Shown here piece after piece: positions 4,322 through 20,782 of a stretch of 64,000 bases of DNA (position 1 is the first letter of the stretch; each line of letters begins with the position of its first letter). Both the position numbers and the translations under genes were made by a program. The stretch is from Lentzea fradiae (GTDB lineage: Bacteria > Actinomycetota > Actinomycetes > Mycobacteriales > Pseudonocardiaceae): contig NZ_FNCC01000004.1 in NCBI RefSeq assembly GCF_900100955.1, positions 1 through 64,000 on the forward strand, written 5' to 3'. The notes under the pieces were generated by a model, which was not told the origin of the DNA, ran no database searches, and saw only the letters and a program-made list of their open reading frames with translations.

Positions 4322-4419
4322 GGTGCTGCGACACCTCCGGTGTGCGGCGTGAGGCAGGGTGCATCGAGATGCGACAAAGCCTAAGCCTCCACCGGAGGAG
4401 CGCAACAGGGCTCAAGGGC

Positions 4420-4767
4420 TCATCCGCCGCAAGCCGAGGACACCTTCGCGACGAGGTCGGCCTTCTGCGCCACCCAGTCCGCGGCGGAGCCGACGTTCTG
4501 CATGCCGTTGGCCGCTTCCTCGAGTGCCTGCTTCACCTGCTCGTCCGGCGAGGAGTTCGCGAGGTTCTCGAGCTCCTTCGCCTTCGCCTGGGTGTCCTCC
4601 AGGGCCTTCTGCGGGTCGCTGAGGTCCGGCGAGAAGCCCACCAGCTGGATCGCGTCGGCGCACAGCTTGACCTTGTCCGCGGTGTTGCTGACGTCCTGGA
4701 TCGTGTCGCAGGCCGTCAGGCTGCCCAACGCGATGACGGCCGCCGCCAGCGGTCCCAGTAGGCGCAT
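4420..4767 (-). CDS. Small secreted lipoprotein
   Basis: 115 aa from ATG at 4767, with AGGGAGAG upstream. The N-terminus is a lipoprotein signal peptide (MRLLGPLAAAVIALGSLTAC), with the lipobox LTAC placing the modified Cys at residue 20. The mature part is helical and charged (SDPQKALEDTQAKAKELEN) and ends KVSSACGG, so a second Cys is present. No family assignment. It lies just downstream of, and co-oriented with, the ABC exporter operon, so it may be its last gene, though the 41-base gap leaves this open. Confidence 0.75.
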   Translation of the reverse strand: MRLLGPLAAAVIALGSLTACDTIQDVSNTADKVKLCADAIQLVGFSPDLSDPQKALEDTQAKAKELENLANSSPDEQVKQALEEAANGMQNVGSAADWVAQKADLVAKVSSACGG

Positions 4768-4808
4768 TCGCTCTCCCTCTGCCCGAAGTGTCCGGTTGTT
4801 CTCGTTGT

Positions 4809-7361: not shown

Positions 7362-7395
7362 GCCGACCTACGTTAGTGACCGTCGCAAGTGGATT

Positions 7396-8781
7396 TCACG
7401 AGCTGCCGAACGCGCTGGTCACCACTTCACCCACACCGGGCTCCGAGGCCAGGCAGAGGAAGTAGCTGCGGGTGCCGTCCTTGAACCCGACCGCGGTGAT
7501 CTCCCACCCGGTCGTGTCGACCGACGCCCGCGTGTTCGCCTTCATCGCCTCGGTCGTGCAGACGCCCTTCACCTCGGCCGACGCCGCCAGCTCGTCCGAG
7601 TCGACCGCCGGGATCTCCCCCGAGAGCCAGCCCCCTCCGAACGCCTCCCAGTAGTGCTCGTCCGCACAGCTGCCGACCTTCCGCGCCGTGGCTGCCTCGC
7701 CACCGATGCTGTTGATCCCGCGGAAGCACGTCGACTTGTCGATGCAGAACCCGCCGTCGCACTTCTTGAGGAACGGCGGCACGTCCTCCGCGCCACCCGG
7801 CTGCGCGGTCGTGGTCGTGGCGGCCCCCGGCCCCTGCGCGGCCGCCTTCTCGTCACCGAAGGAGTTCCACGCGACCACGCCTGCGGCGAGCGCGACGACC
7901 ACCCCCGCCGCCGCGGCGAGCACCGGCCACCGCGTGCGCTTGACCTGCGCGCCGACCGGCACCGTCGGCTGCCGCATCGGGTCGCTCAGCTCGTCCCGCA
8001 GCTGCGCCGCACTGGCCGTCCGCAGGTTCGCGTCCGGGTGCAGCGCCCTGGCCAGCGCCTCGTGCAGAGCCGGCGGCACCCCGTCGACGGCCGTCACGGG
8101 ACGGCGCAGGATCTCGCCGAGCTGGTCGAAACTGCTGACGGGCCACGGCACCGGCCGCGGCGGCTTGCCGGCGAGCAACGTGTAGAGCGTCGCGGCGAGC
8201 GAGTACACGTCCGCCTGCGGCGTCGGCTCCGCCATCGCGAATGCCTCCGGCGGTGCGTAACTGGGGCTCAGGGCGTCCCGCGTGACCGTGCTGCCACCCT
8301 GAGCGTCCAGCAGCGCCGCGAGCCCGAAGTCGGCGAGCTTGGGCGTGCCGTACCGGTCGACGAGGATGTTGCCGGGCTTGATGTCCCGGTGCAGAACCCC
8401 CTCCGAATGAGCGGTAGCGAGCGCGTCCGCGAGCCGGATCCCCAGCTCCCGCACCCGTTCCGGGTGCAACGGCCCCTGCCGGTCGAGCTGGTCGGCGAGC
8501 GACCCGCCCGTGCACAGCTCCATGACGATGTAGGGCGTGCCCCACGGCGTGATGTTCGCGTCGTGCACCCCGACCACGTGAGGATGCCCCGACAACTTGG
8601 CCGCGGCCCGAGCCTCCCGCAGGAACCGGTGCCGGTCCCGCTCGTCGACGAGCACCCGGTTGTCGATCTTCACCGCGACGTCGCGGTGCAACTGTGCCTG
8701 ATGGGCGCGGTAGACGGTGGCGAACCCACCCGCGCCCAAGGGTCTCAGGTCCGACAGGCCGGGGATGTGAGGTGCGGTCAC
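7396..8781 (-). CDS. Membrane receptor-type serine/threonine protein kinase
   Basis: About 461 aa. Hanks-type kinase domain with glycine loop GAGGFATVY (from residue 16), ATP-anchoring Lys in DVAVKI, catalytic loop HRDIKPGN, DFGLA, and activation-segment end SPSYAPPE. One transmembrane helix follows (about residues 280-300), then an extracellular tail with several Cys (KKCDGGFCIDKSTC, SCADEHYWEAF, GVCTTEA, YFLCLAS). The tail is likely a disulfide-stabilised sensor, and its pattern recalls the septum-formation-type domain. I chose GTG at 8781 because the fold begins right after it. A start at 8811 (MSGCATRLPR) is also in frame. Confidence 0.88.
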   Translation of the reverse strand: MTAPHIPGLSDLRPLGAGGFATVYRAHQAQLHRDVAVKIDNRVLVDERDRHRFLREARAAAKLSGHPHVVGVHDANITPWGTPYIVMELCTGGSLADQLDRQGPLHPERVRELGIRLADALATAHSEGVLHRDIKPGNILVDRYGTPKLADFGLAALLDAQGGSTVTRDALSPSYAPPEAFAMAEPTPQADVYSLAATLYTLLAGKPPRPVPWPVSSFDQLGEILRRPVTAVDGVPPALHEALARALHPDANLRTASAAQLRDELSDPMRQPTVPVGAQVKRTRWPVLAAAAGVVVALAAGVVAWNSFGDEKAAAQGPGAATTTTAQPGGAEDVPPFLKKCDGGFCIDKSTCFRGINSIGGEAATARKVGSCADEHYWEAFGGGWLSGEIPAVDSDELAASAEVKGVCTTEAMKANTRASVDTTGWEITAVGFKDGTRSYFLCLASEPGVGEVVTSAFGSS

Positions 8782-8823
8782 GCGCGGCAGCCTAGTCGCG
8801 CACCCCGACAATCCCGTCTCGCG

Positions 8824-9306
8824 CTACTTCTTCGCCGCTTTGGCGGCCTTCTTGAAGTCGCGCACCTCCAGCAGCGACTTCTGGTCCGTCACGTCCGCGA
8901 CACTGCGCCGGCTGCCTTCGTCGCCGTAGCTCCCGGCGGCCTCCCGCCATCCGTCGGGCTGGATGCCGAACTGCTTGCCGAGCAACGCCAGGAAGATCCT
9001 CGCTTTCTGGTCGCCGAACCCGGGCAGCGCCTTGAGCCGCTTGAGGACCACGGCACTGTCACCGCTGCTCCAGATCTTCGTGACGTCGCCGTCGTAGTGC
9101 TCTGCGACGTACTGGGCGAGCGCTTGGACGCGCTTGGCCATCGAGCCGGGGAAGCGGTGCACCGCCGGTGGGGTGGCCATGATCGCTGCGAAGGCTTCCG
9201 GGTCGGTCTCGGCGATGCGGTGCACGTCGAGGCCGTCCATGCGGTCGGCGATCACCTTCGGGCCGGAGAACGCCTTCTCCATCGGGATTTGTTGATCGCA
9301 ACACAT
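8824..9306 (-). CDS. HhH-GPD-type base-excision DNA repair protein, 5' end displaced by element insertion
   Basis: 160 aa. The body matches the actinobacterial HhH-GPD family (QIPMEKAFSGP, helix-hairpin-helix LPGFGDQKARIFLALLGKQF), a DNA-glycosylase-like fold. The family's normal first ~30 residues (…FALLLGMLLDQ) are missing. The sequence before DQQIPME is AT-rich foreign DNA that supplies a chance ATG-TGT-TGC start at 9306 with no ribosome site. The missing 5' part is found, same strand, at 17621-17728 and again at 18879-18986. So this is the 3' remnant of a gene split by integration. It may be made as a truncated protein or not at all, and precise excision should restore the gene. Confidence 0.8.
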   Translation of the reverse strand: MCCDQQIPMEKAFSGPKVIADRMDGLDVHRIAETDPEAFAAIMATPPAVHRFPGSMAKRVQALAQYVAEHYDGDVTKIWSSGDSAVVLKRLKALPGFGDQKARIFLALLGKQFGIQPDGWREAAGSYGDEGSRRSVADVTDQKSLLEVRDFKKAAKAAKK

Positions 9307-9319
9307 CGTTGAATGTATG
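9293..9319. other. attL (left element/chromosome junction)
   Basis: To the left of TGATC (9293-9297) is HhH-GPD coding sequence. To the right is element DNA, GCAACACATCGTTGAATGTATG. Joined on paper with the right arm (CATACACTAGGCAGTGTGC, 17615-17633), the rebuilt attP is an imperfect inverted repeat around TGATC, with CACA…TGTATG matching CATACA…TGTG. That is the layout expected of a large-serine-integrase attP. The exact crossover dinucleotide is not determinable by eye. Confidence 0.65.
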
Positions 9320-9413
9320 TTTGTAACATTGTCGACAGTCGCGGGGATCAGTATCTGTGTACTTAGCGCAAAGATCTGACTCTCAGGTGATAGTTCATAG
9401 GTGATGGCGGTGA

Positions 9414-9887
9414 GTGTTGCGGGCTGAGTCGACAGGTGGTGGCCCTGTAGCTCGATCTAGAGCGCTGGGTGCTACGGATGAATCTACTTCGGTGTTGCCG
9501 AATGATGTCGCTCGGTTCAGCCTTGACGACGCAACTGATTCTGCCAACGGTCAATTTAGGAAATACATACTGACATATGTGGAAGAGTTGGCTGAGGAGA
9601 CTTATCGCGCCGAGTTTGGTTCCAGGGCGCGAAGTCTCGGCTCGCGAGAGGTAACCACTTCTCATGTAGTGCAAGCCTATGAAGTCCTGCGGTCCAGTAG
9701 GGTATTGCTGGAACAGGCGCCCAGGTCAAAAGGGTCTATTGCGGCGCTGACATTTGCTTTTTCTGCCGCCCTCGGTACTGGCGCTATGGGAAGCTATTTG
9801 AATAGCGGGCTTCAGTGGGTGGCGTTTATCGCACTTTTCGTGGTCGCGCTTGCTAGTAATGCTTTCGTGCTTTGGAGGCGACTGTGA
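9414..9887 (+). CDS. Unknown two-helix membrane protein (cargo gene 1)
   Basis: 157 aa, no family recognised. Residues 47-100 are helical and charged (QFRKYILTYVEELAEE, then REVTTSHVVQAYEVL). Two hydrophobic segments follow (about 107-127 and 132-153), then a short basic tail, WRRL. The REVTTSHVVQAY segment resembles the last strand-helix of a histone fold, only as a visual impression. It overlaps the next gene by 4 bases (GTGA), so the two are translationally coupled. Codon use and G+C are far lower than in chromosomal neighbours, indicating recent transfer. Start uncertain: GTG at 9414 is used, later starts are possible. Confidence 0.6.
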   Translation: MLRAESTGGGPVARSRALGATDESTSVLPNDVARFSLDDATDSANGQFRKYILTYVEELAEETYRAEFGSRARSLGSREVTTSHVVQAYEVLRSSRVLLEQAPRSKGSIAALTFAFSAALGTGAMGSYLNSGLQWVAFIALFVVALASNAFVLWRRL

Positions 9888-10618
9888 AAAAGGCCCGGGC
9901 GAGGCAGGGTAGAGCGACAGAAATCGTGCTCACGGATGCCGCGAAAGGCGAACTGTCTCGATATGTGGAGGATGTTCGTGCCGGTGTTCTTGCGCATGTC
10001 GATTCTCCGCGTGGAGTCACGGAGTATCGTGTGGGTCGCGAAGAAATTGTTCGAGCTATCCGACGCTCTGAGCAGCAGCGAAATAGTTCTAAGTTGACTA
10101 GGTCGCGTCGGGATATTGTGTTCCTGGTTGCCTCCGTGGTTGGAGGATTGGGTCTCGGAGTAATTGTCAATTTCTTGCCGAGTTTGATTACTTCTCCCGA
10201 TGCGCTGGCGGCCTATGCGGCCATTGCTGGGGCAGTTCTCGCTGCTGTTGCCATGCTCTTTAGTGCGCTACTCGCCGCGAGGCAGCGGGGCAAGGCAGAG
10301 GACGATGCTCGTCGAGCTCATTTCGAATCTGCGATGTTGGTCCAGCAGGTAGCGCTCGTGGAGTCGCTGGCTCGTAGGATTGTGCAGCCAGATAAGGAGA
10401 TGTCCGGACGACAGATTCCCCTGCGTCGTCTTTTGGATCATTTGGTGGATGAGGGAGTATGGAGTGATGATGACGTGCGGCGCTTTGCGGAGACGCTTGC
10501 CGTGCGCAACGCTATCGTTCATGATGCCATTCCTAACTTCTCGGTCACCGATCTTCTGGCTGCTCGACTTCGAGCTGCGGACCTGGTTTCGCGGCTAGAG
10601 GATAAGGCAGGTTTGTGA
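9884..10618 (+). CDS. Unknown membrane protein with HEPN-like C-terminal motif (cargo gene 2)
   Basis: 244 aa from GTG at 9884, with GGAGG (9874-9878) five bases upstream. An alternative TTG at 9872 overlaps that ribosome site. Layout: a soluble basic N-terminal region (1-70) ending GREEIVRAIRRSEQQ, two hydrophobic segments (about 77-98 and 108-131), then a roughly 110-residue helical cytoplasmic domain. That domain holds R208-N-A-I-V-H213, the R-x4-H pattern of HEPN ribonucleases. N-terminal region plus helical hairpin mirrors cargo gene 1. Function unknown. A membrane-anchored RNase effector paired with a membrane partner is a reasonable but unproved hypothesis. Confidence 0.65.
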   Translation: MKKARARQGRATEIVLTDAAKGELSRYVEDVRAGVLAHVDSPRGVTEYRVGREEIVRAIRRSEQQRNSSKLTRSRRDIVFLVASVVGGLGLGVIVNFLPSLITSPDALAAYAAIAGAVLAAVAMLFSALLAARQRGKAEDDARRAHFESAMLVQQVALVESLARRIVQPDKEMSGRQIPLRRLLDHLVDEGVWSDDDVRRFAETLAVRNAIVHDAIPNFSVTDLLAARLRAADLVSRLEDKAGL

Positions 10619-11106
10619 TGAGTGTTTCCTTCGTTCGGCCTTGCTGTGATCTGTTGCCACTTTGAAGTCGTAGACTCTCGCGGTTAATCTGACCTAGTTG
10701 CATCTGTGATCCAATTGGAGATTCGTCGGCAGGCATGGGTGCTGCTAGAGCTGCGCGCGTTTGCGGACATAGTGCAATGTTTGGTTTGGGCTTGTGGTGG
10801 GAAATATGTCCCGATATTCGCGGGCTGTCTGACCCGTTGGCGCGACGGCGCGGAGCGGTGGCGTGGCGTCGATCGCCGTGCCCAGCTCGACCGATCAGCC
10901 ACGTCGGCGATCGTCACGGCCTGGTGCACATCGTTGGTCAGCTTCTTCTCAATGTGCTGCCGCCAATGGGCGCCCTCCCTGTCCGCGCCCCGTCCCGAGC
11001 ACGGCCGGAGGCCGCGCGCAGCGGGCGGGGATGTGGACAGAACAGGAGGGCGCCTGCGCTGGCGAAGCCAGCGCCTTGAACAGGGAGAAGAAACTTTGAA
11101 CCACCG
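10619..11106. other. Intergenic stretch without convincing gene
   Basis: Base composition shifts here from the low-GC cargo (up to about 10700) to ordinary high GC (from about 10840). Several open frames cross the area, but none shows codon bias, a ribosome site or a recognisable domain. A hairpin near 11056 probably belongs to the end of rep. The composition step may mark an internal boundary of the element. Confidence 0.5.
11056..11074 (-). terminator. Hairpin downstream of rep
   Basis: GCGCTGGC (11056-11063) and GCCAGCGC (11067-11074) form an 8-bp stem with a 3-base loop, 32 bases beyond the rep stop codon. There is no clear U-tract, so it is either a GC-rich terminator or a replication-associated hairpin. 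Confidence 0.4.
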
Positions 11107-12492
11107 TCAAGCAGCCGAGTCCGGGTCGGCTGGCCGCGCGACAGGCTTGTACCGATGCTGCTCACGAATCAGCTCGGCCCACGACTCCTCGCCCGAGTTG
11201 GTGTAGCCGACACCAGCAACAGCCCAGTCACCGACGCGAACGATCTGCTGATCAGCCGGAAGCGGATCGAGCCCAGCAAGCTCGCGAGCAAGATCAGCGC
11301 GGAATCGCACCCGATCACTCCGCATGGTCCCGAGCGTCGTGGAGTAGCGGCGGCTCTTGGTCGAGAAGTGCCCGCCATACCCGAGCATGTGCGCCCACTC
11401 CCGCAGCTTCAGATACGCATGGTCCTCGTGTCCGCCCAGCTCCCAACACGTCTCGATCATCCGGCGCGCGTGCATCGACAACCCGCGAACGCGGCGCAGG
11501 TGACCAACGCTCCTGATCTGTCGATCAACGGTCCCCGCGGCTTCGGCTCCCTTGGTGGCGTACTTGGCGATGTACCTCGCCACCTTCGCGTCGGTCCAGC
11601 CGTCGCCGTCGTGTTCGATCGGCCTGATGTCGAGTTGCTTGCCCCAACGGATCGTCTGTGCGAACCCCGGCACGCTGACTCGCGCAGATCGGGCGGCACT
11701 GTTGATCGCGTCGCACAACATCTCAGCGTCCACACCGAACGGTGGTGGCTCACCCGGTCCGGACGTACCGTCAAGCCGAATCACGGCATGGAAGTGCACC
11801 AGGCCGCGCGCCTGGTACTCGGCGACCTTGGCGTACTCAACCCGCACGACCTTCGAGAGTTTCGAGCGCGAAACTCCGAGTGCCTCGGCCAAGTGCCGGC
11901 GTAGGTACACGGCGAACGTGTGCCACAGCTCGCCAGCACGGTTGTTCCACAGCACCGCTCCGACATAGTCGTAGCTGTCTGGATCAACGGCCTGTCCGAG
12001 TACGGGATCATCCTCCTGATGCTTACTGCGACACGAGGGGCCTTCACGGCGTGGGTGACATGGACGAACGGCACCGGTCGCGTCCACGACCCGAGCGTGT
12101 ACAGGCCCGAATGACGGCGCGGTGAACGTGGCGAACACCCGTGGGTGCGATGCGACGGAGGCCGGAACGTCTCGACCTCCGGCAAGCCCTGACCTGATCA
12201 GGTGGAACGTGTCATCGGCGTAGACCTGGGAACATGCCTCGCACCGGCTTGCGCGTCGGTTGCCGCACGCGGTCAGCAGGTACTCGTTCGGCTCGTCCCA
12301 CGTCGTGTAGGTGCTGAGTATTTCGCCGGTCGCAGCGTCGACCGTGGTGGACGAGCCGACCAGACGGATCGGCGCGGAGCAACCGCGCGTGCTGGCGACC
12401 ATCTCTTTCCAGCGGTGGAAGTCCTGCTTGTTGGCGGCACCCTTCGCCAGCGACACGAACTCGGGTGGCAGGTTGATCTCGTGGCCGCTCAT
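11107..12492 (-). CDS. Replication initiator protein (RepSA-like)
   Basis: 461 aa from ATG at 12492, preceded by AGGAGG at good spacing. The longer frame to 12693 is not needed. It matches replication initiators of pSAM2-type actinomycete integrative elements, which support rolling-circle replication of the excised form. Visible marks: a Cys cluster (CGNRRASRCEAC, about 76-87), the His motif LVHFHAVIRLDG (HFH at 233-235) and a Tyr/Lys motif ARYIAKYATKGAE (about 306-318) suited to nicking. The stop of the small gene upstream overlaps its start (TGATG). The adjacent palindrome cluster at 12651-12742 is a candidate origin. Confidence 0.85.
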   Translation of the reverse strand: MSGHEINLPPEFVSLAKGAANKQDFHRWKEMVASTRGCSAPIRLVGSSTTVDAATGEILSTYTTWDEPNEYLLTACGNRRASRCEACSQVYADDTFHLIRSGLAGGRDVPASVASHPRVFATFTAPSFGPVHARVVDATGAVRPCHPRREGPSCRSKHQEDDPVLGQAVDPDSYDYVGAVLWNNRAGELWHTFAVYLRRHLAEALGVSRSKLSKVVRVEYAKVAEYQARGLVHFHAVIRLDGTSGPGEPPPFGVDAEMLCDAINSAARSARVSVPGFAQTIRWGKQLDIRPIEHDGDGWTDAKVARYIAKYATKGAEAAGTVDRQIRSVGHLRRVRGLSMHARRMIETCWELGGHEDHAYLKLREWAHMLGYGGHFSTKSRRYSTTLGTMRSDRVRFRADLARELAGLDPLPADQQIVRVGDWAVAGVGYTNSGEESWAELIREQHRYKPVARPADPDSAA

Positions 12493-12647
12493 CACGCGGC
12501 CTCCTGCTGAGGCTGGCTGTGTCGTTCGTCGGCGATCCGGATGCCGAAGATCGCGTTGACTCGCTGCCAGCGTTCGTCGCTCCAGGCGGGCACGGCTGCT
12601 GCTTGCTGCTCGGCCCACTCCCACATCTCGTCGGGCGATGGCCCCAC
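12492..12647 (-). CDS. Small protein translationally coupled to rep
   Basis: About 51 aa, start GTG at 12647 (GGGAG eight bases upstream) or GTG at 12656. The sequence is acidic and Trp-rich (EMWEWAEQQAAAVPAWSDER, then WQRVNAIFGIRIADE). It ends in a TGA that overlaps the rep ATG as TGATG. The good ribosome site, coupling and non-random composition make it real. I do not recognise a family, but short genes of this kind commonly precede rep in actinomycete integrative elements. A role in replication control is a guess from position. Confidence 0.6.
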   Translation of the reverse strand: MGPSPDEMWEWAEQQAAAVPAWSDERWQRVNAIFGIRIADERHSQPQQEAA

Positions 12648-12650
12648 AAG

Positions 12651-12742
12651 AAACACTCCCTTTCACGGTCGTGGAACCACGACGCGTCAACACAGGAAGC
12701 GCGGGGATCTACCCCTACTTGTGTTGGTGAAAGGGAGTGTTT
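12651..12742. repeat. Nested palindromes forming a cloverleaf: candidate replication origin
   Basis: The outer arms AAACACTCCCTTTCAC (12651-12666) and GTGAAAGGGAGTGTTT (12727-12742) are perfect 16-bp inverted repeats. The right arm continues inward as TGTGTTG (12720-12726), whose partner CAACACA (12688-12694) is displaced by a separate palindrome, GTCGTGGAACCACGAC (12668-12683). The apex holds GGGG-ATCTA-CCCC (12703-12715). Together these give a stem with a side hairpin and an apical loop, directly upstream of the small gene and rep. Rolling-circle double-strand origins usually have such structure with the nick site in a loop. It could instead be an operator. Confidence 0.65.
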
Positions 12743-12956
12743 GTGTGGTGGTTGCGGTCTTCTGTGACACCCCAGAGGGCTCGGCCCTCGTGCTGCTCTC
12801 GTCAGGGGATGATGTGCCACTCCGCAGGCCGTAGCCTCAAGTTTTGTTTGTATGTATAGGTTCTGCGCTGTGTTGAGTTGTCGCACGTGCTCGCGAACTG
12901 CGTCGCGGCTCCGCTGAGTTTGATCAGACGGCCGTCAGGCGGCGGCCGGTGTTCGG
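12743..12956. other. Non-coding spacer upstream of rep region
   Basis: No gene is seen. The segment 12838-12870 is unusually AT-rich for this DNA (gttttgtttgtatgtatagg) and could hold a promoter or origin-associated region. Confidence 0.4.
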
Positions 12957-13250
12957 TCAGTCGTCGTACTCGTCCGCAAGGCGGCGTTGAATCGCGGCGA
13001 CTGAGTTGGCGAGCTCGGCCGCGACTCGGCGGGCTCGTTGACGGGCTCCCCGACGTCGCCACGCCGCTGCGAGCCCGCAGGCAATCGCGTACAGAGCGAC
13101 GCAAAACCACACGATGCACACGACGACGACTTGGATTGCTTCAGCGAGGGCACTCGGCGCTGCGCTGATCTGTTCGCGCGCGAACACGCCACCCGAGCCA
13201 GCAGCAAGACCGCCAAGCAACAGAAGAGCGCCACCAGCTCCGACGTCCAT
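12957..13250 (-). CDS. Small two-helix membrane protein of the element
   Basis: 97 aa from ATG at 13250. Two hydrophobic stretches (GALLLLGGLAAGSGGVF, and IQVVVVCIVWFCVALYAIAC) are followed by a long basic helical tail (RRRGARQRARRVAAELAN). It starts 4 bases after the stop of the upstream gene, so the two are an operon. Small membrane proteins near rep in actinomycete elements are sometimes spread/transfer accessories, but I cannot assign this one. Confidence 0.6.
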   Translation of the reverse strand: MDVGAGGALLLLGGLAAGSGGVFAREQISAAPSALAEAIQVVVVCIVWFCVALYAIACGLAAAWRRRGARQRARRVAAELANSVAAIQRRLADEYDD

Positions 13251-13254
13251 CGGT

Positions 13255-13563
13255 TCACTCGGCACGTCCGACGGCAGCACTCCAGCGGGCCATCTCGCCT
13301 TCGCTCACCGGTGCGAATGTTCCGGTCGCCGTGTTGGTGGCCTCCTGGTGCAGTTCCTCGCACCTGGCCGCGAACTCGGTAGCCGCCTTGGCCAGACCCC
13401 AGGCGAACTGGGCGGCGAGCTTCGGGCCATCCGGCCCGTCCGGGGTCTGCACGGCAAGTTGAGAATCGCCAATTGCGGCGATGAGCGACGGCGAACCGGG
13501 CATGTGCTCGACCAGCGCTGAAAATGCCCCCTCCTCGGGGCGAGCCAGTACGTAGAACCCCAT
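13255..13563 (-). CDS. Hypothetical soluble protein of the element
   Basis: 102 aa from ATG at 13563, with AGGAGG seven bases upstream. It begins MGFYVLARPEEGAFSALVEH and continues as a mixed alpha/beta soluble protein without Cys pairs or membrane segments. First gene of a two-gene operon with the membrane protein at 12957-13250. No family recognised. Confidence 0.65.
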   Translation of the reverse strand: MGFYVLARPEEGAFSALVEHMPGSPSLIAAIGDSQLAVQTPDGPDGPKLAAQFAWGLAKAATEFAARCEELHQEATNTATGTFAPVSEGEMARWSAAVGRAE

Positions 13564-13720
13564 CTCGTGCCTCCTGTCGAGTCGTCCTGAGACGACAATC
13601 GGCGCACTGAGGCGACGAACCAACGACACAGGTGACTGAGATATCCAGTTCGCTCATATCCGCACGTCAGCGGGTGCTCGTGTGGTTACACTCGGGTTCA
13701 GTCGCAGGTCAGGGGTGGTG

Positions 13721-15112
13721 ATGAGCGGACGGAACGCGCCTCGGCAGTGCCAGGGATGCGGAGCGCGGTTGGCGAGTGACAACCGCGAGAATCTGTGTGC
13801 GCCCTGCGTCCGTCGGGATGTCCACGCCTTCCGCGCGCCTGCCAAGCCTGCCGAGTTCTGGGATCGTCCGCGATTGCGCAAAGCTCTGCGGTCCAGGCAC
13901 TTCGGCCACGTGATCGAGGCGTATCGGAAAGAGCACGACCCTGTTCTGACCCAGGCGAAGATCGGACGCTGGTTCGGGCTCACGCAGGGGCAGATCAGCC
14001 GCCTGGAACGGTCCGTTGAACCTCTTCAAGACCTGAGCAAGCTTGAGCAGTGGGCGCAGGCACTCCGTATTCCGGAAGCGCTGCTGTGGTTTCGGTTCAC
14101 CGAACACGACGTGCAGCCTGCTTCGGAGATGTCCACTGGAAACGGCTTCGGCTGGTTCAGCGCGCCGTCACCGGAGATCGTTGAGCGGATCGTTTGCACA
14201 GCTGACGTCGAGACTCTGCGAGCGATGACCCGGACGTTCCGGCAGCTCGACAACCGCTTCGGCGGTGGACACGCCCGTGCCACGGTCAGTCACTACCTCG
14301 TCGGCGAAGCCGTGCCGCTGTTGCGGGCGGGCCGGTTCAGAGAGGGTGTACGGCGGGAGCTGTTCGGAGCGGTCGCGGAACTCAACCAGCTCGCCGGTTG
14401 GATGGCGTACGACGTCGGCGACGCCAGCGCCGGACGTAAGCATCTGCGGCAGGCTCTCCAGCTATGCCAAGACGTCGGTGACGATGCCCTCGCCGCTGAG
14501 ATGCTGGCTGGCATGAGCCATCACGCGGCCTTCGTCCGGTCACCTCTTGTGGCCGTCGACCTGGCCCGAGCCGCTCGTGACAACGCCGGCCGGACGGGGA
14601 TCTCCGCGCTCATGGCTGAGTCCGCGGTGATGGAGGCTCACGGCCTCGCGCTTCGCCGTGATGCCAAGGGATGCCTTGCGGCGCTTAGGGATGCGGAGGC
14701 TTCGTTCTCGTCGGCAGGCTCCGACGTTCCGGAATGGCTGCGGTACTTCGACGCCGCGTACATGGCAGCGAAGTTCGCGCACTGCTTCCGGGACCTTGGA
14801 CGGTCCGACGAAGCTGAGCGGTTCGCACGGCGCTCGTTGGAGATGACCGAGGGGTACGACCGAGGACGGCTGTTCAACACGGCCTTGCTCGCTTCGATCC
14901 TGGCTGACCAACGGCGCGTTGAGGAAGCCTGCGCAGCGGGCACCAGCGCTCTGCGCATGGCGGGGAACATGCACTCCGTCCGCACTCTGGCGTACCTGAA
15001 GGACGTGGCTCGGCGGCTCCAGCCATTCCACGCTGAGCCTGCGGTTCAGGCGCTCTACGCGGAGATGGCTGCCGTTGGGATCGAGCTATCCGAACGCCAG
15101 GACGTGCAGTAG
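13721..15112 (+). CDS. Zinc-ribbon/XRE-type regulator with TPR-like C-terminus
   Basis: 463 aa from ATG at 13721, with AGGGG just upstream. N-terminal four-Cys ribbon (C10-x2-C13 … C26-x2-C29), a helix-turn-helix at about 76-98 (LTQAKIGRWFGLTQGQISRL), then about 300 residues of helical repeats rich in Ala/Leu/Arg, as in XRE proteins with TPR-type ligand domains. Such regulators are common in actinomycetes and their elements and may control excision or replication (inference). Its 3' end overlaps the convergent NUDIX gene by 27 bases. Confidence 0.85.
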   Translation: MSGRNAPRQCQGCGARLASDNRENLCAPCVRRDVHAFRAPAKPAEFWDRPRLRKALRSRHFGHVIEAYRKEHDPVLTQAKIGRWFGLTQGQISRLERSVEPLQDLSKLEQWAQALRIPEALLWFRFTEHDVQPASEMSTGNGFGWFSAPSPEIVERIVCTADVETLRAMTRTFRQLDNRFGGGHARATVSHYLVGEAVPLLRAGRFREGVRRELFGAVAELNQLAGWMAYDVGDASAGRKHLRQALQLCQDVGDDALAAEMLAGMSHHAAFVRSPLVAVDLARAARDNAGRTGISALMAESAVMEAHGLALRRDAKGCLAALRDAEASFSSAGSDVPEWLRYFDAAYMAAKFAHCFRDLGRSDEAERFARRSLEMTEGYDRGRLFNTALLASILADQRRVEEACAAGTSALRMAGNMHSVRTLAYLKDVARRLQPFHAEPAVQALYAEMAAVGIELSERQDVQ

Positions 15113-15667
15113 TCCGACCTGGGCGGCTGCCCCGATGATCTCACCGTTGGCGATCATGTCTTTGATCGAGGACAGCGGAATCCAGGCCACGCGCTCGGCT
15201 TCGTTGATGTCAGCCTGTTGGCCGGTGTCTTCTGCGCCTTCGGCGACGTAGATCAGGTTCTCGAAGTCCGCAGTGCCGGTGAGAGGCTGGAACTTGGTCA
15301 GCAGACGGACGCTGCGTGGCTTCCAGCCTGTCTCCTCGATCGCTTCGCGCTCGGCGCAGGCGGCTGGGTCCTCGTCGGGGTCCAGGTAGCCGCCAGGAAG
15401 TTCCCAGGTCCAGCGGTCCATGATCCACCGGTGCCGGTAGATCATCAGCACGTTCTCGCGGGCGTCGTCCAAGACCAGAGTCATGACGGCCTTGGGCATC
15501 CGGAGGACCCACTGCTCGAACTGCACGCCGTCCGGCAGTTCCACGTGCGCGATGCTGACGTTGAGCTTGCGGGTGTCGTCCACAAGCCGTTCTTCGTGGA
15601 TCGTCCAACGCGTCGACTCGACTGAACCTTCTCCCGCTGCCACGCCATCGAACGCTACCCCACTCAA
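15086..15667 (-). CDS. NUDIX hydrolase
   Basis: 193 aa. Complete Nudix box from residue 92 (GGYLDPDED-x3-CAEREAIEETGW), with the REUxEExG core intact, so it should bind Mg2+ and hydrolyse a nucleoside-diphosphate-linked substrate. The N-terminal beta-strand layout and LVLDDARENVLMIYRHRW resemble ADP-ribose pyrophosphatases. NUDIX proteins recur in pSAM2-like elements, where they are thought to act as accessory regulators. Start uncertain: 15667 is used, shorter starts in the first 20 residues are possible. Confidence 0.88.
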   Translation of the reverse strand: MSGVAFDGVAAGEGSVESTRWTIHEERLVDDTRKLNVSIAHVELPDGVQFEQWVLRMPKAVMTLVLDDARENVLMIYRHRWIMDRWTWELPGGYLDPDEDPAACAEREAIEETGWKPRSVRLLTKFQPLTGTADFENLIYVAEGAEDTGQQADINEAERVAWIPLSSIKDMIANGEIIGAAAQVGLLHVLAFG

Positions 15668-15751
15668 TGCAAGAGGGTGCGCACTCGGTCTTCCGCACTG
15701 GAAGCTAGGAGCGCTAAAATCGCCTGATCAACTCCATAGTCGGCTCATCTC

Positions 15752-16069
15752 GTGTGGTCTGGGTCCAGCGCTTGGTTCGACTCCGATTTTGGCGGCTGCG
15801 TCACCAGTCTTCCGTCTCTGACGGCGTTTCTTGGACTCTCGCTGTTCTTTCACTTTTTCGGATTCAGGAACCTGAAGAAGCAAGTGAAGAGTATCAAGAA
15901 AGGTGTGAAGCGTATGCGCAAGAAGATCAAGCGCGGCATCAAGGCGATGCGCAGTATCAAGTGGTTGATCTGGACCAGGCGAGATGAGCTTCCAGCTATG
16001 CCTCGCGCCAGACAAGTTCGATGCGTTCGGGGTGAAATCCTCTCCGGCCGTTTGATGGGTGCACTATGA
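15752..16069 (+). CDS. Possible small basic membrane-associated protein
   Basis: 105 aa at most, GTG start, no strong ribosome site. It has one hydrophobic stretch (LTAFLGLSLFFHFFGF) followed by a strongly Lys/Arg-rich amphipathic stretch (KKQVKSIKKGVKRMRKKIKR). The 3' 74 bases overlap the convergent recombinase gene. The Lys codons are unlike random high-GC sequence, which argues for a real gene, but the reading frame has no recognised relative. Confidence 0.35.
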   Translation: MWSGSSAWFDSDFGGCVTSLPSLTAFLGLSLFFHFFGFRNLKKQVKSIKKGVKRMRKKIKRGIKAMRSIKWLIWTRRDELPAMPRARQVRCVRGEILSGRLMGAL

Positions 16070-17606
16070 CGGCCGCCAGTGCCTCTTCGATGTATGCACG
16101 CTTTTGCGCCAGGGGATAGCCGTCCCAGTCGTCGCGAATCGTCGCCAAGCTCGTGCCCGCCGTGGCGGTCTTGGCCAGCCAGCGTTCGCGGTCGGCGAGT
16201 AGTTCCCGTTCCTGCTGCTCAAGCTCGGGCAGCATCGCGAAGTAGCGGTTGGCTGAGATCCGCCGCTCCTTACGAGCCGCGCTCAGCTCCCGTAGGTCCT
16301 CGCGAACCTCGGCAAGCTCGCCTTCCTGCGGCCAAGGCTCCGGCGTCGTCTGGGCCTCGCGCCGCTGAGCTTCCATCTCGTACTTACGGATCACGGCGGC
16401 CGTCACCCACGCGTCGGTCTCCTGGCCAGGGATGCTGACGCCTCCGCCGCAACCGCCTTTGTTCTTGGCCTCGCAGGTGTAATAGAACCGGTTGGGGTCC
16501 TTCACGCGGGACGCGTGAGCCTTCAAGGCGCGAAGTTTGCAGCCACAGTCGTCCTTGCCGCATCGAAGGGTGCCGGTGAGCAGATAGGTGCGGGTGTTCT
16601 TGCCACGTCCTGCGATCGCGTGGTTGCCGATGACGGCCGTGACCGCATCCCACTCGTCGACGCTGAGGATCGCCTCGAACTGGCCGATGACAGGCTCTCC
16701 GGCGTCGTCACGAACGATCTCGACGCGGAACGACTCCGTGCCGGTCTGTGGGTTGATCTCGCGAACATTGCGTGACCGGTATCCGCAGATCCGAGGGTTC
16801 CGGAAGACCGTCTTGACCGTCTGGTTCGTCCACTTGTTGCCCAACGGGGTCAGAATGCCCCGGTCGTTCCAGTCGTTGACGATCGCGGACAGGGGAGCGC
16901 CTTGAAGGATTCGCTGCGCGGTCTCCCTGATCACTTCGGCCTCTGCCGGGTTCAGGGTCCGCTTGTCCGCGTGCCAGCCGAACGGGCGTCGACCTCCGGT
17001 GGGAATGCCGGCCAGTTCCAACGCCCGGTGCTTGCGACGCACGCGACGTGCGGTGTCGGCGGACTGCTTGTTGTTGGTGGCGACGACGATCCGTGCCACT
17101 GTCCGGCCGTTGTCCGTGAGGAGATCGAGGGTGCCGGTGATGTCCATGATCGGACGGCCGAAGTGCTCGACGACTTCGATGGCGTCTTCGAGGTGCCGGT
17201 TGTCGCGGGTGAGTCGGTCGATGTCGTAGACGATCAGTCCGTCAAGGCGGTCGCCGTTCGGGGTCGTGCCGCGCTTCAGGTCCTCCAGAGCGCCTTCGAA
17301 GATCGGACGCACGACTCGATAGGCGTAGGAGCCGTCCGGAAGCTGCACGCGCTTGCGTTTCCAGGCGGAGGTGTCCGGCTCCATGTAGGTGTGGATGTAC
17401 GTTCCGCGGCGGGACTCCACGTACGCGCGGCAGTCCTTCTCCTGCTCCTCGCGACCCTTGATGTCCTTGCCGGTCAAGGGAAGGCGGCGGACGTTGGCGG
17501 AAGGATCGTCCCGCCCCAGCTCGAACGACAGGCGGACGAGACCCGCCAGGTTCAGCCCTTCGAAGTCGCCCCAATGGGCGCGTCGCACTCGGTCAGATGG
17601 ACCCAT
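15996..17606 (-). CDS. Large serine recombinase (integrase) of the element
   Basis: 536 aa, ATG at 17606. N-terminal resolvase catalytic domain with the nucleophile Ser27 in VRLSFELGRD and the conserved VYDIDRLTRD. Then a recombinase domain (GRRPFGWHADKRTLNPAEAE), a zinc ribbon with four Cys (LRCGKDDCGCKL … YYTCEAKNKGGCGG) and a C-terminal coiled coil (EVREDLRELSAARKERR). This is the standard order for phage-type integrases. Its start codon is 3 bases from the attachment arm, the usual int-attP arrangement. It should integrate the element into the HhH-GPD gene. Excision would need a directionality factor, not identified here. Confidence 0.93.
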   Translation of the reverse strand: MGPSDRVRRAHWGDFEGLNLAGLVRLSFELGRDDPSANVRRLPLTGKDIKGREEQEKDCRAYVESRRGTYIHTYMEPDTSAWKRKRVQLPDGSYAYRVVRPIFEGALEDLKRGTTPNGDRLDGLIVYDIDRLTRDNRHLEDAIEVVEHFGRPIMDITGTLDLLTDNGRTVARIVVATNNKQSADTARRVRRKHRALELAGIPTGGRRPFGWHADKRTLNPAEAEVIRETAQRILQGAPLSAIVNDWNDRGILTPLGNKWTNQTVKTVFRNPRICGYRSRNVREINPQTGTESFRVEIVRDDAGEPVIGQFEAILSVDEWDAVTAVIGNHAIAGRGKNTRTYLLTGTLRCGKDDCGCKLRALKAHASRVKDPNRFYYTCEAKNKGGCGGGVSIPGQETDAWVTAAVIRKYEMEAQRREAQTTPEPWPQEGELAEVREDLRELSAARKERRISANRYFAMLPELEQQERELLADRERWLAKTATAGTSLATIRDDWDGYPLAQKRAYIEEALAAVIVHPSNGRRGFHPERIELVWREA

Positions 17607-17608
17607 AT

Positions 17609-17728
17609 GCTAGTCATACACTAGGCAGTGTGCTGATCCAGCAACATTCCCAGGAGCAGGGCAAACCGGTCTTCTGTCAGGAGCGCGTCGGCTTCGGGGT
17701 TCTGCGCGAGGCACACCGTGCGGGTCAT
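17609..17728. repeat. Direct repeat copy 1: attR arm plus 5' end of HhH-GPD gene
   Basis: 120 bases matching 18867-18986 at 112 of 120 positions (8 mismatches counted by eye). It contains the element-side arm (CATACACTAGGCAGTGTGC), the TGATC core (17634-17638) and, on the minus strand, the first 31 codons of the HhH-GPD gene. Similarity ends exactly at the gene's ATG (17726-17728). Recombination with the other copy would remove the 17850-18871 gene pair. Confidence 0.85.
17621..17728 (-). pseudogene. 5' fragment of HhH-GPD repair gene (copy 1)
   Basis: A 35-codon frame from ATG at 17728 ending in TAG at 17621. It encodes MTRTVCLAQNPEADALL, then FALLLGMLLDQ, the normal N-terminus of HhH-GPD repair proteins, and then runs into element DNA (HTA, stop). 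It joins in register with DQQIPME at 9293 when the element is removed. Confidence 0.8.
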
Positions 17729-17802
17729 GGCGAGAGCATCGCATGGCGAGATGGTCGATGCCGCTTCCGTGGGACCGCCGCCGTTCGCCTCATGAGTGCG
17801 GT

Positions 17803-17838
17803 TTGACTTGCTTTGGTACCGGAGTAGCCTTGGGTACC
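17803..17838 (+). promoter_or_regulatory. Promoter with paired GGTACC operator sites
   Basis: A -35-like TTGACT (17803-17808) and -10-like TAGCCT (17825-17830) are 16 bases apart. TTGGTACCGGAG occurs in the spacer and TTGGGTACCGGAG just after the -10, placing two GGTACC palindromes (17815-17820, 17833-17838) 18 bases apart on the same DNA face. This fits autoregulation by the small regulator that follows. Confidence 0.55.
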
Positions 17839-17849
17839 GGAGGTGTGTC

Positions 17850-18113
17850 GTGACCGTTCAGTCTTCCCCTGTCAAGGTTGATCAAGAAACACACGCTTTG
17901 ATCGCGCATGGCGCTACCGCGCTGCACATGTCCCAGAAAGACCTGTTGGCCGCGGCTGTTCGCGAGTACCTGAGCGCGAGGCGCGAAGAGATCAGTGCCG
18001 CACTGCAGCGCACAATGGCGGCGCTCGATGGAACGCAGGCCGGTCAGGTGGCCGCGTTGACCGGCATGTCGAAGGAACGCCTCGACGAACTGGGCGGGGT
18101 CCGAGAGTCCTGA
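17850..18113 (+). CDS. Small antitoxin-like/ribbon-helix-helix-type regulator candidate
   Basis: 87 aa from GTG at 17850, with GGAGG six bases upstream. The order of a short N-terminal strand (SSPVKVDQETHALIAH), two helices (ATALHMSQKDLLAAAVREYL) and an extended helical tail (SARREEISAALQRTMAALDG) resembles ribbon-helix-helix antitoxins. The stop overlaps the next start (TGATG), indicating coupling. The upstream paired GGTACC sites support autoregulation. The assignment rests on layout, not on a sure family match. Confidence 0.55.
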   Translation: MTVQSSPVKVDQETHALIAHGATALHMSQKDLLAAAVREYLSARREEISAALQRTMAALDGTQAGQVAALTGMSKERLDELGGVRES

Positions 18114-18871
18114 TGGCCGTTCGTCCCACCATTCGCTGCCTTCGAGAAGACCTGGGCCTTGACCTGCCGTCGCTCGACGTGCCGCTCGACGAGATCGATC
18201 ATCCGTTGGTCAGGAAGGCGAACGAGCAGTTCGCCCAGCCAACGGGTCCGCGGGAACGAATCCGTTCGATCGATGACGTGGTCGCGTTCAAGGTCAAGGT
18301 CCAGCGGTGGCGAGGGGCGGTTGTCGAGGGGGGGGGCGATCCCAGTTGGATGGTGATGGCCGGAGTCAGGGAAGCGGGGAGTCGAGACGACTTCTACGAA
18401 GCTCTTGCGACTGCCGCCGTCGCCGCTCGTGCGAGGTACAACGCGGAGAACAGTCCGCCTCTGAAATCGTCGACGTACTGCGGCCAATGGTTGGTGTGCG
18501 AGGACGACCAGGACCGGTATCGCGCCGAGGCGGCTGTTCGGCTGTTGCGGGCCATGCGGGAAACGGTGCGACGCCTGGTGTGTGCGTCGCTGCTCGACGG
18601 ACACGAGCACTCCGACGAGATCGCCGGTGCGGAAATCGGGGTGCTCGTGCGAGGCGTCGAGGACACGGGCACCTATGTGGCTGTCTGGATCACTGGCTCG
18701 GTGCCTGACAACTTCGTGGCCATCGCCCTGGACCTGGTTCCTGGCTGTGACAGGGACGGCTGGTATCCGGAGTTCGCGATGCCGGACCGGGCGCTTCGTC
18801 CCGGTGAGCAGATCTACTCGAACATGATGGACCCACAGGCTGCCGCTCAGTTGCTTGGAGAGAACAGCTAG
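18113..18871 (+). CDS. Unknown 252-aa protein, candidate toxin partner
   Basis: 252 aa, ATG overlapping the stop of the upstream regulator. Soluble, mixed alpha/beta, no signal peptide. Conserved-looking segments include PSWMVMAGVREAGSRDDFYE, YCGQWLVCEDDQDRYRAEA and DRALRPGEQIYSNMM. I recognise no family or catalytic motif. A run of nine G (18328-18336) in the coding sequence could slip and shift the frame. Its TAG stop lies in the direct-repeat arm. A toxin role is inferred only from operon structure. Confidence 0.55.
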   Translation: MAVRPTIRCLREDLGLDLPSLDVPLDEIDHPLVRKANEQFAQPTGPRERIRSIDDVVAFKVKVQRWRGAVVEGGGDPSWMVMAGVREAGSRDDFYEALATAAVAARARYNAENSPPLKSSTYCGQWLVCEDDQDRYRAEAAVRLLRAMRETVRRLVCASLLDGHEHSDEIAGAEIGVLVRGVEDTGTYVAVWITGSVPDNFVAIALDLVPGCDRDGWYPEFAMPDRALRPGEQIYSNMMDPQAAAQLLGENS

Positions 18872-18986
18872 TCATACATCAAGCAGTGTGCTGATCCAGC
18901 AACATTCCCAAGAGCAGGGCGAACCGGTCTTCTGCCAGGAGCGCGTCGGCTTCGGGGTTCTGTGCGAGGCACACCGTGCGGGCCAT
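18867..18986. repeat. Direct repeat copy 2: attR-like arm plus 5' end of HhH-GPD gene
   Basis: Second copy of the 17609-17728 repeat, with core TGATC at 18892-18896 and arm CATACATCAAGCAGTGTGC. Where copy 1 adjoins the integrase start, copy 2 adjoins the end of the 252-aa gene. Where copy 1 is followed by the small-regulator promoter, copy 2 is followed by abiEii. This looks like the surviving right end of a second, related element. Confidence 0.85.
18879..18986 (-). pseudogene. 5' fragment of HhH-GPD repair gene (copy 2)
   Basis: A 35-codon frame from ATG at 18986, stop TGA at 18879, starting MARTVCLAQNPEADALL and differing from copy 1 by two amino-acid changes and three silent changes within the gene part. 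It begins 12 bases after the abiEii stop codon on the same strand, so it is probably cotranscribed with abiE. Confidence 0.78.
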
Positions 18987-18998
18987 GTGGGAATGGTG

Positions 18999-19943
18999 TC
19001 ACGGACCAGCCGGGTGTCGTCCGGCGAGCCCTCCTGGGGCAGGGTTCCATCGCAGCTCGGAGGCATTCCACCGACCTGGGTCCGATACCGACAGGACCGG
19101 GCTGAGGAACAGCGTCATGAGTTCGGAGGCGTGCGCCAGCGTCCGATACGCCGTCAATGCGTCGAGCGTGACGGCTTCACGTTCGTAGCCGACGCTCCAG
19201 GACGCCGGTTCCGGAACGACGAACACATCGGGCAGTTCGAGATCAGTGCCTGCATCACGTCGTCTCTGGCACTCGTGCCTGATCGCGACCTGTAGTTCTC
19301 GGCCAGGAACGGACTCGCGCAGAGCGATGAGCACGAGGTCCACGAGATCGCGATACCTCGTGGAGCACCTTCCGTTGTGCTTCTCATACAGTGCGCACAC
19401 CTTGTCCGCCACGTGGGCGATCAGCGGGTAGAGCCTGACCAGTGGCCAGTCGTCAGGCCAGTCGACGGGGACCGATGGCTGAAGCCTTCGCAGTTCAGGC
19501 GTCCCGTGCAGGAGCGAGTGAACAACCAGGTCCATGCTGACGGTGCCCTCCGTCCGCGGTCCTACCAGGATGTTGAACGAGACGCGTACGGTGGGACGGT
19601 TCTCCGTCATCTCGGTGCGTCCTCGGTAGTCGTACCTGACGAAGTCGCCCAGGTCGACGGCTGCGGCAGCGCGGATCGCCGCCACCGCTTCCTTCAGATC
19701 GGTCGCGTGCGAGCGGCACAGATCGATGTCCCGGCTGTGGCGGACATCGCGGTAGCGCACCAGCATCGCCTGGCCGCCCTTGAGGAGCCAGCCGTCGGGA
19801 TCGTGGCGGAAGACCCTGGTCAGGAGTCGCTCGAAGTAGAACCTGCTGAGCAGATCACCGGGACGTGCGCCTGCGTTCGCGGCCTCGCGTTTGGCGCGAT
19901 CCCGGAGCGCGCGGCTCAGTGCCTGAGGCGACGCGTAGCTCAT
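18999..19943 (-). CDS. abiEii: AbiEii-type nucleotidyltransferase toxin (type IV toxin-antitoxin)
   Basis: 314 aa. Nucleotidyltransferase core with LLKGGQAMLVRY (residues 53-64, the KGGT-type motif) and HSRDIDL (69-75, the metal-binding DxD), then a helical domain with HVADKVCALYEKH and SRYRDLVDLV-like RYRDLVDLVLIAL, as in AbiEii/MenA proteins. Characterised relatives cause abortive infection or reversible growth arrest, with MenA-type toxins acting on tRNA acceptor ends. Its start overlaps the stop of abiEi by 4 bases. A HhH-GPD gene fragment follows directly downstream. Confidence 0.9.
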   Translation of the reverse strand: MSYASPQALSRALRDRAKREAANAGARPGDLLSRFYFERLLTRVFRHDPDGWLLKGGQAMLVRYRDVRHSRDIDLCRSHATDLKEAVAAIRAAAAVDLGDFVRYDYRGRTEMTENRPTVRVSFNILVGPRTEGTVSMDLVVHSLLHGTPELRRLQPSVPVDWPDDWPLVRLYPLIAHVADKVCALYEKHNGRCSTRYRDLVDLVLIALRESVPGRELQVAIRHECQRRRDAGTDLELPDVFVVPEPASWSVGYEREAVTLDALTAYRTLAHASELMTLFLSPVLSVSDPGRWNASELRWNPAPGGLAGRHPAGP

Positions 19944-20782
19944 CGTTCGGTCTCCGGCGTCGGGTTGTTCTCGTCCGGTTCGCCGATCGCCGCGTTCACG
20001 GCCGCTCGTACCTTCCGGAGTTGTGCCGTGTCCAAGCCGGCCAGTTGGGTAGCGATCGCTTGGACTGTCGCTGTTGCCTCAAGGCCGGGTTCACCGGTCA
20101 TCGCCACCGCTGAACGGCCGTCGAACGCGGAGTCCGCTCCCGCTTGGTGCAGCAGGTGCTGGAGCAGGCGGAGCCCGTCGTTCCTGTCGATGCCGTATGC
20201 GGGAGCGCAGTCGGCCAGGACTGCCAGAAGACGTCGTACGTCCACCAGTCGGCGAAGCAGTGCGTCGTTGAGGACTCCGCCCAGGTGACCCCCGTCCACT
20301 CGAGCGACGAGAAGGTCTTTGATGGTGCGTTCGACCGTGGTCACCGGCAGACCGTCGTGGGTCGTTGTGATCTCGTGACGTGCCAGATCGCCGCGATGCA
20401 GCCGAATCCCGGGGACCCGGGTGGTTCGTCTCCGTGGCACGGTCATCTCGACCTGGGGTGCGGGTATGTCGCCGAGCTCGTGCAGAACGCAAGCGGTGCG
20501 ATGGGAGAGGACCCCGTTGTCCTGGTCGGCGGCGTCTCGCTCCCAGGCGCGGCGTGATGGGGCAAGGCGAAGCCAGGCCGACTTCTCTTCGAGGTGGTTC
20601 GGCGTTCCCGCCGCGACCACGAGATGGACGCCGCGTGCCACGTGGTCGACGATGCCTGCCGAAACGAGTCTGGTCAGAGTTGTGCGGTTCACCCCTGCCG
20701 CGTCCGCCTGCTGGGTGGTGAACAGGCCCCACTGGTCGGCGGCGATCTCGCCCACGACTTGAAGAGCCTCGACCCGTTTCAT
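19940..20782 (-). CDS. abiEi: AbiEi-type antitoxin and transcriptional autoregulator
   Basis: 280 aa. N-terminal winged-helix with the AbiEi_4 pattern (DQWGLFTTQQADAAGVNRTT, then LVSAGIVDHVARGVH), then a C-terminal domain with LSHRTACVLHELGDIPAP and VTTVERTIKDLLV. In characterised AbiE systems this protein binds inverted repeats in its own promoter and neutralises AbiEii without forming a complex. The matching inverted repeats are at 20792-20838. Confidence 0.9.
   Translation of the reverse strand: MKRVEALQVVGEIAADQWGLFTTQQADAAGVNRTTLTRLVSAGIVDHVARGVHLVVAAGTPNHLEEKSAWLRLAPSRRAWERDAADQDNGVLSHRTACVLHELGDIPAPQVEMTVPRRRTTRVPGIRLHRGDLARHEITTTHDGLPVTTVERTIKDLLVARVDGGHLGGVLNDALLRRLVDVRRLLAVLADCAPAYGIDRNDGLRLLQHLLHQAGADSAFDGRSAVAMTGEPGLEATATVQAIATQLAGLDTAQLRKVRAAVNAAIGEPDENNPTPETER

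Follow-up and report, generated by a model that had tools for sequence, protein, structure and literature searches.

The 64,000-nucleotide stretch of Lentzea fradiae DNA analysed here (contig NZ_FNCC01000004.1, positions 1 to 64,000; hereafter the window) contains, on the minus strand, a TIGR03252 gene of the HhH-GPD type whose codons 31 and 32 are separated by a serine-integrase element of 8,341 bp, and codons 1-31 of this gene are present twice, each time fused to the same type of element arm. Combining this arrangement with that at the corresponding locus in related genomes, we suggest that codons 31-32 of the HhH-GPD gene probably function as the attB site of a serine-integrase family and that the gene is re-supplied after interruption, the target is used again and defence cassettes accumulate at it.

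The structure of the locus gives good support for a site-specific insertion of the integrase element. A short core, TGATC, is common to attL and attR inside the target, and removal of 8,341 bp in silico (9295-17635) restores an open frame of 187 amino acids; both 5' copies (A and B in Table 1) rejoin the 3' part in frame. An earlier reading made from the letters of the window alone (the sequence-only reading) had described an HhH-GPD repair gene used as attB and split in frame by a serine-integrase element, and this description is borne out by the TIGR03252 match of the 3' part (positions 25-186, E 8.9e-77), by the 5' part ending FALLLGMLLDQ, by the Resolvase, Recombinase and zinc-ribbon domains of the integrase and by the restored frame. 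Of the excision that it proposed, 9295-17636 with rejoining at TGATC, the core and the in-frame site stand, whereas the length of 8,342 bp is one base too long and breaks the frame. The half-sites (CATACAY...GTGTGYTG) are largely kept in eight aligned elements, with the left arm of G079 and the right arm of G013 as the most divergent. The inverted repeat formed by both arms has 13 matches over 23 overlapping bases at the best offset and is weak on its own, since 393 of 20,000 shuffles equal it.

The second 5' copy, which the sequence-only reading overlooked, lies in a segment (18867-18987) that is 93.4% identical over 121 bp to 17609-17729, element arm included. Between both 5' copies lies a two-gene cassette of 1,258 bp consisting of a small gene with a product resembling ribbon-helix-helix (RHH) proteins and a gene for a protein of 252 amino acids; outside the outer copy lies an AbiE pair with the AbiEi antitoxin adjoining the AbiEii nucleotidyltransferase, as in type IV AbiE systems. 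The 252-residue protein has no Pfam, NCBIfam or PADLOC match. Its gene is present in 17 of 327 genomes of the family, with an RHH-like gene beside it in all 17, and we consider the two genes a candidate new toxin-antitoxin or defence pair.

Table 1. Features of the HhH-GPD locus in the window
Feature	Coordinates	Strand	Remarks
Protein kinase gene, downstream anchor of the locus	7396..8811	-	Open reading frame (ORF); label by reading only
3' part of HhH-GPD gene	8824..9306	-	TIGR03252 match as given in the text
attR core TGATC	9293..9297		Same TGATC core at 17634-17638
attR element arm (P half-site)	9298..9320		Similar in relatives
Two ORFs (9414-9887, 9872-10618)	9414..10618	+	No match over curated cut-off
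RepSA-type replication initiator	11107..12693	-	PF20199, E 2.4e-156; NCBIfam RepSA 492 bits, below the 700 cut-off
NsdA-family TPR regulator	13682..15112	+	NF053720, E 4.1e-87
Nudix hydrolase	15086..15667	-	PF00293, E 3.9e-18
Large serine integrase	15996..17606	-	Domains as given in the text; alignment with two relatives
attL element arm of integrase element	17611..17633
HhH-GPD 5' part, copy A (codons 1-31)	17634..17728	-	Includes core 17634-17638
Small cassette gene, RHH/VapB-like by reading	17796..18113	+	Sub-threshold Pfam matches only
252-amino-acid protein, no known family, cassette partner	18113..18871	+	Stop codon inside arm
Second attL-type element arm	18869..18891
HhH-GPD 5' part, copy B (codons 1-31)	18892..18986	-	Core 18892-18896; joins 3' part in frame
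AbiEii toxin (nucleotidyltransferase)	18999..19943	-	PF08843; PADLOC AbiEii, E 1.1e-91
AbiEi antitoxin	19940..20782	-	PF13338; PADLOC AbiEi, E 6e-86
DnaJ-like gene, upstream anchor of the locus	21599..22705	-	ORF; label by reading only

Relatives of the integrase sit at the same codon. Among 390 genomes of the family, 26 have an integrase match at 1e-60; nine integrases score above 900 bits, the window's included, and in all nine a TIGR03252 5' fragment adjoins at this codon (in G076 at a distance of about 0.6 kb); the sequence-only reading had pointed to such other elements as a check. A tenth, weaker integrase (G267, 388 bits) has a 3' piece of HhH-GPD beside it. The arm pattern with at most 3 mismatches occurs at 13 sites in 9 of the 390 genomes and the reversed pattern at none. 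A complete HhH-GPD gene lies inside the element in seven of eight assessable cases (G012, G013, G076, G079, G121, G132 and G281; G274 was left out of this count as its contig ends), the exception being the window element, in which the pair of unmatched ORFs occupies the part where the relatives have the full gene. Larger elements of other kinds occur as well: one of about 9.9 kb in G182 and one of about 69 kb in G267 have the full gene close to the 5' fragment and a 3' remnant at the opposite end, and in G278 the full gene and an arm-joined 3' remnant are about 83 kb apart with no old 5' fragment detected there. That integration toggles a repair function, as the sequence-only reading had proposed, is thus not supported as a general rule: given the full genes in seven of eight elements and the small cassettes that mostly precede an intact gene, the usual outcome appears to be repeated use of a re-supplied gene. 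A single inherited lineage of the element-borne genes is not supported, with five label changes on the tree against a shuffled mean of 5.6 (206 of 500 shuffles as low); the copies of G012 and G013 cluster with those of another genus in a supported clade, and the G079 copy groups with its own remnant. Between its integrase and Nudix genes, the G012 element also has a gene (L037, 6450-7049) for a TIR-domain protein that PADLOC identifies as ThsB-like. An integrase homologue of Phytohabitans suffuscus (59%; L066, about 9900-10001) lies in another gene, comEC-like by reading, indicating that this integrase group has changed its target.

Within Lentzea, 19 of 24 genomes contain a single full-length TIGR03252 match with no second piece at the search threshold, and in G001 the locus is clean (DnaJ-like gene, about 78 bp, HhH-GPD gene); the uninterrupted genes that the sequence-only reading had looked to in related genomes are therefore present. 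The 19 include G006, G008, G011, G020 and G022, in which the old 5' remains emerged only on closer search. The other five have the full gene plus pieces (G012, G013, G015), one gene with two overlapping matches (G023) or, as in the genome of the window (G000), pieces only. A payload or scar is found at the site in 11 of the 24 genomes (G000, G005, G006, G008, G011, G012, G013, G015, G016, G020 and G022). AbiE is present at the site in six, shortened in G015 and G022, and a TIR gene in G016 (scanned) and G006 (by eye). The clearest case is G011, in which a 5' fragment with native-type promoter, small internal deletion and arm is followed by the RHH pair and then by the intact gene. Similarly, a decayed arm-joined 5' fragment and the shortened AbiE precede the full gene in G022, a 12-nt start scar and AbiE precede it in G020, and cassettes precede it in G015, G008 and G006 too. 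The order of cassettes differs, with AbiE then RHH in the window and RHH then AbiE in G008. As to the anchors, the DnaJ-like gene lies directly upstream of HhH-GPD in G001 and upstream of the array in G136, a genome of another genus, and the protein kinase gene follows HhH-GPD in relatives, directly or at about 1 kb.

Over all relatives, Lentzea included, small cassettes without an integrase occur at the same site with the RHH pair, AbiE, TIR, Fic or GmrSD as payload, in varying orders; the gene that follows them is usually intact and has a new 5' end. Outside Lentzea, in G067 and G069, an arm-joined 5' fragment and the RHH pair precede the full gene, and outside the old 5' fragment lies a Fic remnant that is clear in G067 (55 residues, E 6.6e-25) and weak in G069 (38 residues, 53%, E 2.1e-5). 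The Fic remnant thus comes before RHH in G067, whereas G075 has RHH and then Fic, with a 5' piece after each. A Fic cassette adjoins the integrase element in G079 (gene scanned) and G281. In G136, an RHH cassette lies between two nearly identical arm-joined 5' copies and is followed by insertion sequences (labelled by reading only), a GmrSD gene and the full gene. G499, of another family, has six extra gene pieces upstream of the full gene, five of about 31 codons and one reaching residue 76, with a YefM-YoeB pair between two pieces and three pieces just downstream of an integrase-like gene. Starting from the payload instead of the target, the HhH-GPD locus accounts for 11 of the 12 matches to the 252-residue protein gene with E values of 1e-50 or better; five more distant carriers have no HhH-GPD piece in the fetched flanks. 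In total, TIGR03252 is present in 360 of the 390 family genomes, 27 of them with more than one match, a number that includes contig-end splits and probable paralogues. Among 16 closely inspected genomes, fragments at codon 31 were found in G067, G069, G182, G267, G274, G278, G281 and G499. Two full-length HhH-GPD genes lie about 0.9 kb apart in G196 (L137) with another gene between them, and G200 looks alike by coordinates.

The boundaries of the small cassettes can be examined in G067 and G069, in which the payload is 97% identical. At the left edge, identity stops at the core, with 69 of 92 positions (75%) identical in the old 5' end and 51% in the sequence beyond. At the right edge, identity drops near the start codon, with 76 of 92 identical in the new 5' end (29 of the first 32 and 47 of the last 60) and 83-89% identity over the remainder of the HhH-GPD gene. 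This pattern argues against a recent target duplication as well as against a plain core-to-core exchange. As a general rule, recent duplication of the host 5' end is rejected: between the old and the new 5' copy, identity is 80.4% in G079, and 71 of 92 positions match in G067 and 83 of 92 in G069 despite the 97% identity of the payload. G136, with 91 of 92, would fit target duplication.

Taking these data together, we suggest the following course of events: (i) insertion at the core would displace the old 5' end of the HhH-GPD gene, (ii) the newcomer would supply the gene, either whole or as a promoter with the first codons, (iii) the re-supplied gene would regenerate the target, at which the next element can land, and (iv) defence genes would pile up in the interval from the DnaJ-like gene to HhH-GPD. 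Provided that every newcomer inserts into the intact gene, AbiE would have arrived first in the window, then the RHH pair and finally the integrase element, and this last arrival, coming without a replacement gene, would have left HhH-GPD broken.

Several observations weigh against this model, which was drawn throughout from assemblies alone. G005 and G016 have a payload with neither scar nor arm; the arm pattern with up to 7 mismatches was not found in G006, G008, G020 and G022, with the arms of G008 and G022 seen by eye only; and many Lentzea have ordinary genes upstream of HhH-GPD. In G072, the RHH pair is present with no HhH-GPD piece in the 8 kb read, and in G075 no HhH-GPD match over the family cut-off was found despite the array, suggesting that the gene is not always kept. 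Of the more distant integrases (L077-L093, E 8e-74 to 8e-61), none of 17 loci has an HhH-GPD piece in the fetched flanks. At the class level, in which 12 matches besides the window's own were found in 8 of 394 genomes, two have such a piece in the flanks, both in G499, and ten have none. Finally, no integrase-less cassette with its own right element arm (armR) was seen, and the right edge in G067 and G069 argues against a simple exchange at the core.

The small cassettes may be exchanged by the integrase in trans on attL-type sites or by homologous recombination between the repeated 5' ends, and three routes deserve consideration. It is possible, though less likely than not, that every cassette began as a complete insertion, with left arm, payload, full HhH-GPD gene and armR, and that homologous recombination of the element-borne gene with the host 3' remnant then deleted armR, which would have fixed the payload in place and left one working gene with a new 5' end. 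States preceding such a collapse are at hand in the seven integrase elements with a full copy and an arm-joined 3' remnant and in G182 and G267 with a full copy and a 3' remnant, and G076 has two arm-joined 3' pieces. Element copy and 3' remnant align over 413-446 bp with 88% identity in G182, 82% in G076 and 78% in G121, whereas in G012, G013, G079 and G132 only short pieces align, mostly at 71-80%; collapse by recombination thus seems possible in some genomes and unlikely in others. The missing armR cassettes speak against this route, as does the new 5' end in G067 and G069, which tracks the host and not the payload.

Alternatively, and as tentatively, an integrase acting in trans may recombine small circles of 5' fragment, left arm and payload with either attB or a further attL at the core, resulting in an integron-style array. 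Direct attL-type repeats flank the cassettes in G000, G076, G079, G136 and G281; cassette order varies; and seven of eight measured cassettes have lengths of 1,231-1,279 bp with either the RHH pair or Fic as payload, the eighth being a decayed cassette of 798 bp (G015). This set comprises 17634-18896 of the window and L052, L096, L098, L114, L131 and L132, with reference points that vary by a few bases between genomes. Carried further, this route would make the start of the HhH-GPD gene a capture site similar to that of integrons but operated by a serine integrase. Small defence cassettes, each terminated by a promoter of its own and a spare set of the first 31 codons of the repair gene, would be inserted, excised and reordered via attL-type sites, and the regenerated gene start would provide both the next landing site and selection for maintaining the array; we regard this extension as equally tentative. 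If cassettes did move in trans, they would represent a means of gene capture distinct from the tyrosine-recombinase integrons and an exception to the usual rule on serine-integrase site pairing: serine integrases reportedly do not recombine other pairings (PMC3783163). The right edge near the start codon in G067 and G069 is a second difficulty.

As a third route, payloads may be spread and reshuffled by homologous recombination alone, through the repeated 5' ends, the arms and the neighbouring genes; the integrase would then have made the first insertions only. We hold this route as tentatively as the other two, with evidence on both sides. The G067/G069 mosaic is in its favour, as are 5' copies that are closest to each other within one genome in G000 (94.6% versus at most 88.6% to other genomes) and G281 (96.7% versus at most 72.5% elsewhere, in a compared set that lacks a near relative); this route leaves unexplained why the left edge is sharp at the core and borders on unrelated sequence, and the new 5' end of G015 resembles G021 more (94.6%) than it does the old copy of the same genome (92.4%). 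An ordinary gene-disrupting element next to a chance duplication of the 5' fragment would agree with the broken gene and the lack of an intact second copy in this genome but is contradicted by other genera, in which such tandem 5' fragments with their arms are present too, and we consider it very improbable.

Returning to the model of a re-supplied and reused target, the window has an element without a replacement gene. No further TIGR03252 gene was found in this genome, save a contig-end duplicate on C31, and the repair function may therefore be lost here. Alternatively, it may be kept by a predicted product of 160 amino acids starting in the element arm. The first codons of the 3' part (ATG TGT TGC) are arm sequence; the 3' part alone scores 257 bits, over the TIGR03252 cut-off of 136.5. 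Decay of the 3' remnant was not seen, with a median dN/dS of 0.146 compared to 0.149-0.211 in six intact genes, a value equally compatible with recent insertion and with residual function. Contig C31 (L003) ends in an exact copy of 9,044 bases of the window start (1-9044) that stops 249 bases before the attR core; we reject it as a second locus and read it as an assembly overlap, which may be a plain one or a sign of reads differing at the integration site. For 9050-19100, no second copy was found in the genome beyond a 52-base chance match. A sequence search for a relative of the HhH-GPD protein with a solved structure gave one chance match only (E 0.97).

With respect to expression, the attR arm supplies an in-frame ATG or GTG before the 3' remnant in eight of ten remnants compared (codons by eye), and the CATACAT upstream of the arm-derived start codon (9293-9320 in the window, and in relatives) resembles a -10 box. 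In several 5' ends, a sequence resembling a -10 box can be seen by eye some 7 bases ahead of the ATG. This suggests leaderless transcription of HhH-GPD from a promoter that may differ between payload types.

From attR to attL, the integrase element contains the two unmatched ORFs, RepSA, small ORFs, the NsdA-family regulator, the Nudix hydrolase, which may resemble the Pif protein of actinomycete integrative and conjugative elements (AICEs), and the serine integrase. The element shares the integrase and the RepSA-type initiator with AICEs and lacks a recognizable FtsK-type Tra protein: no FtsK/SpoIIIE translocator was seen inside 9298-17633, where the ORFs above 300 codons are the integrase, RepSA and the NsdA-like regulator only and shorter ORFs were scanned in part. 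The window element looks like a reduced AICE.

The arrangement resembles several known systems. Staphylococcal and enterococcal cassette chromosomes (SCC/ECC) likewise use serine recombinases and a single chromosomal gene as repeated landing site, and they stack while the gene is kept functional. SCC elements are defined by ccr genes and the orfX/rlmH site; here, the target is TIGR03252 with its site close to the 5' end at codons 31-32, the single-protein integrase scores 28.8 bits against a CcrB cut-off of 900, most elements contain a whole replacement gene, and the payloads are defence or toxin-antitoxin genes. Word searches of open-access papers found no description of HhH-GPD together with a serine integrase, none of TIGR03252 and none of element-borne copies of interrupted genes. 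The AICE Faln2929 of Frankia alni, with a serine recombinase and RepSA, disrupts a putative endonuclease gene and its excision was detected by polymerase chain reaction (PMC3218068); in these respects it is similar to the window element, the targets being compared by description only, whereas it has a tra gene, and the part of that report available mentions neither a replacement gene nor stacking. In dusA-specific islands and prophages, the element's own sequence replaces the 5' end of the target, which may keep working (PMC4482086). Likened by description and not by integrase sequence, they share the 5'-end replacement and differ in the target gene, and the word 'tandem' is absent from the accessible text. 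Accretion of integrative and conjugative or mobilizable elements (ICEs, IMEs) and cis-mobilizable elements (CIMEs) gives tandem elements at one site, with remnants that keep att sites (PMC5704250). At the HhH-GPD site, several genera have payloads that include AbiE, Fic, TIR, GmrSD and toxin-antitoxin genes, and 31-codon TIGR03252 fragments provide a simple marker for actinobacterial defence islands. In the part of the same source available, site-specific serine-recombinase IMEs at internal gene sites are described as disrupting dispensable genes (PMC5704250); the serine-integrase family described here, by contrast, appears mostly to re-supply the gene that it breaks.

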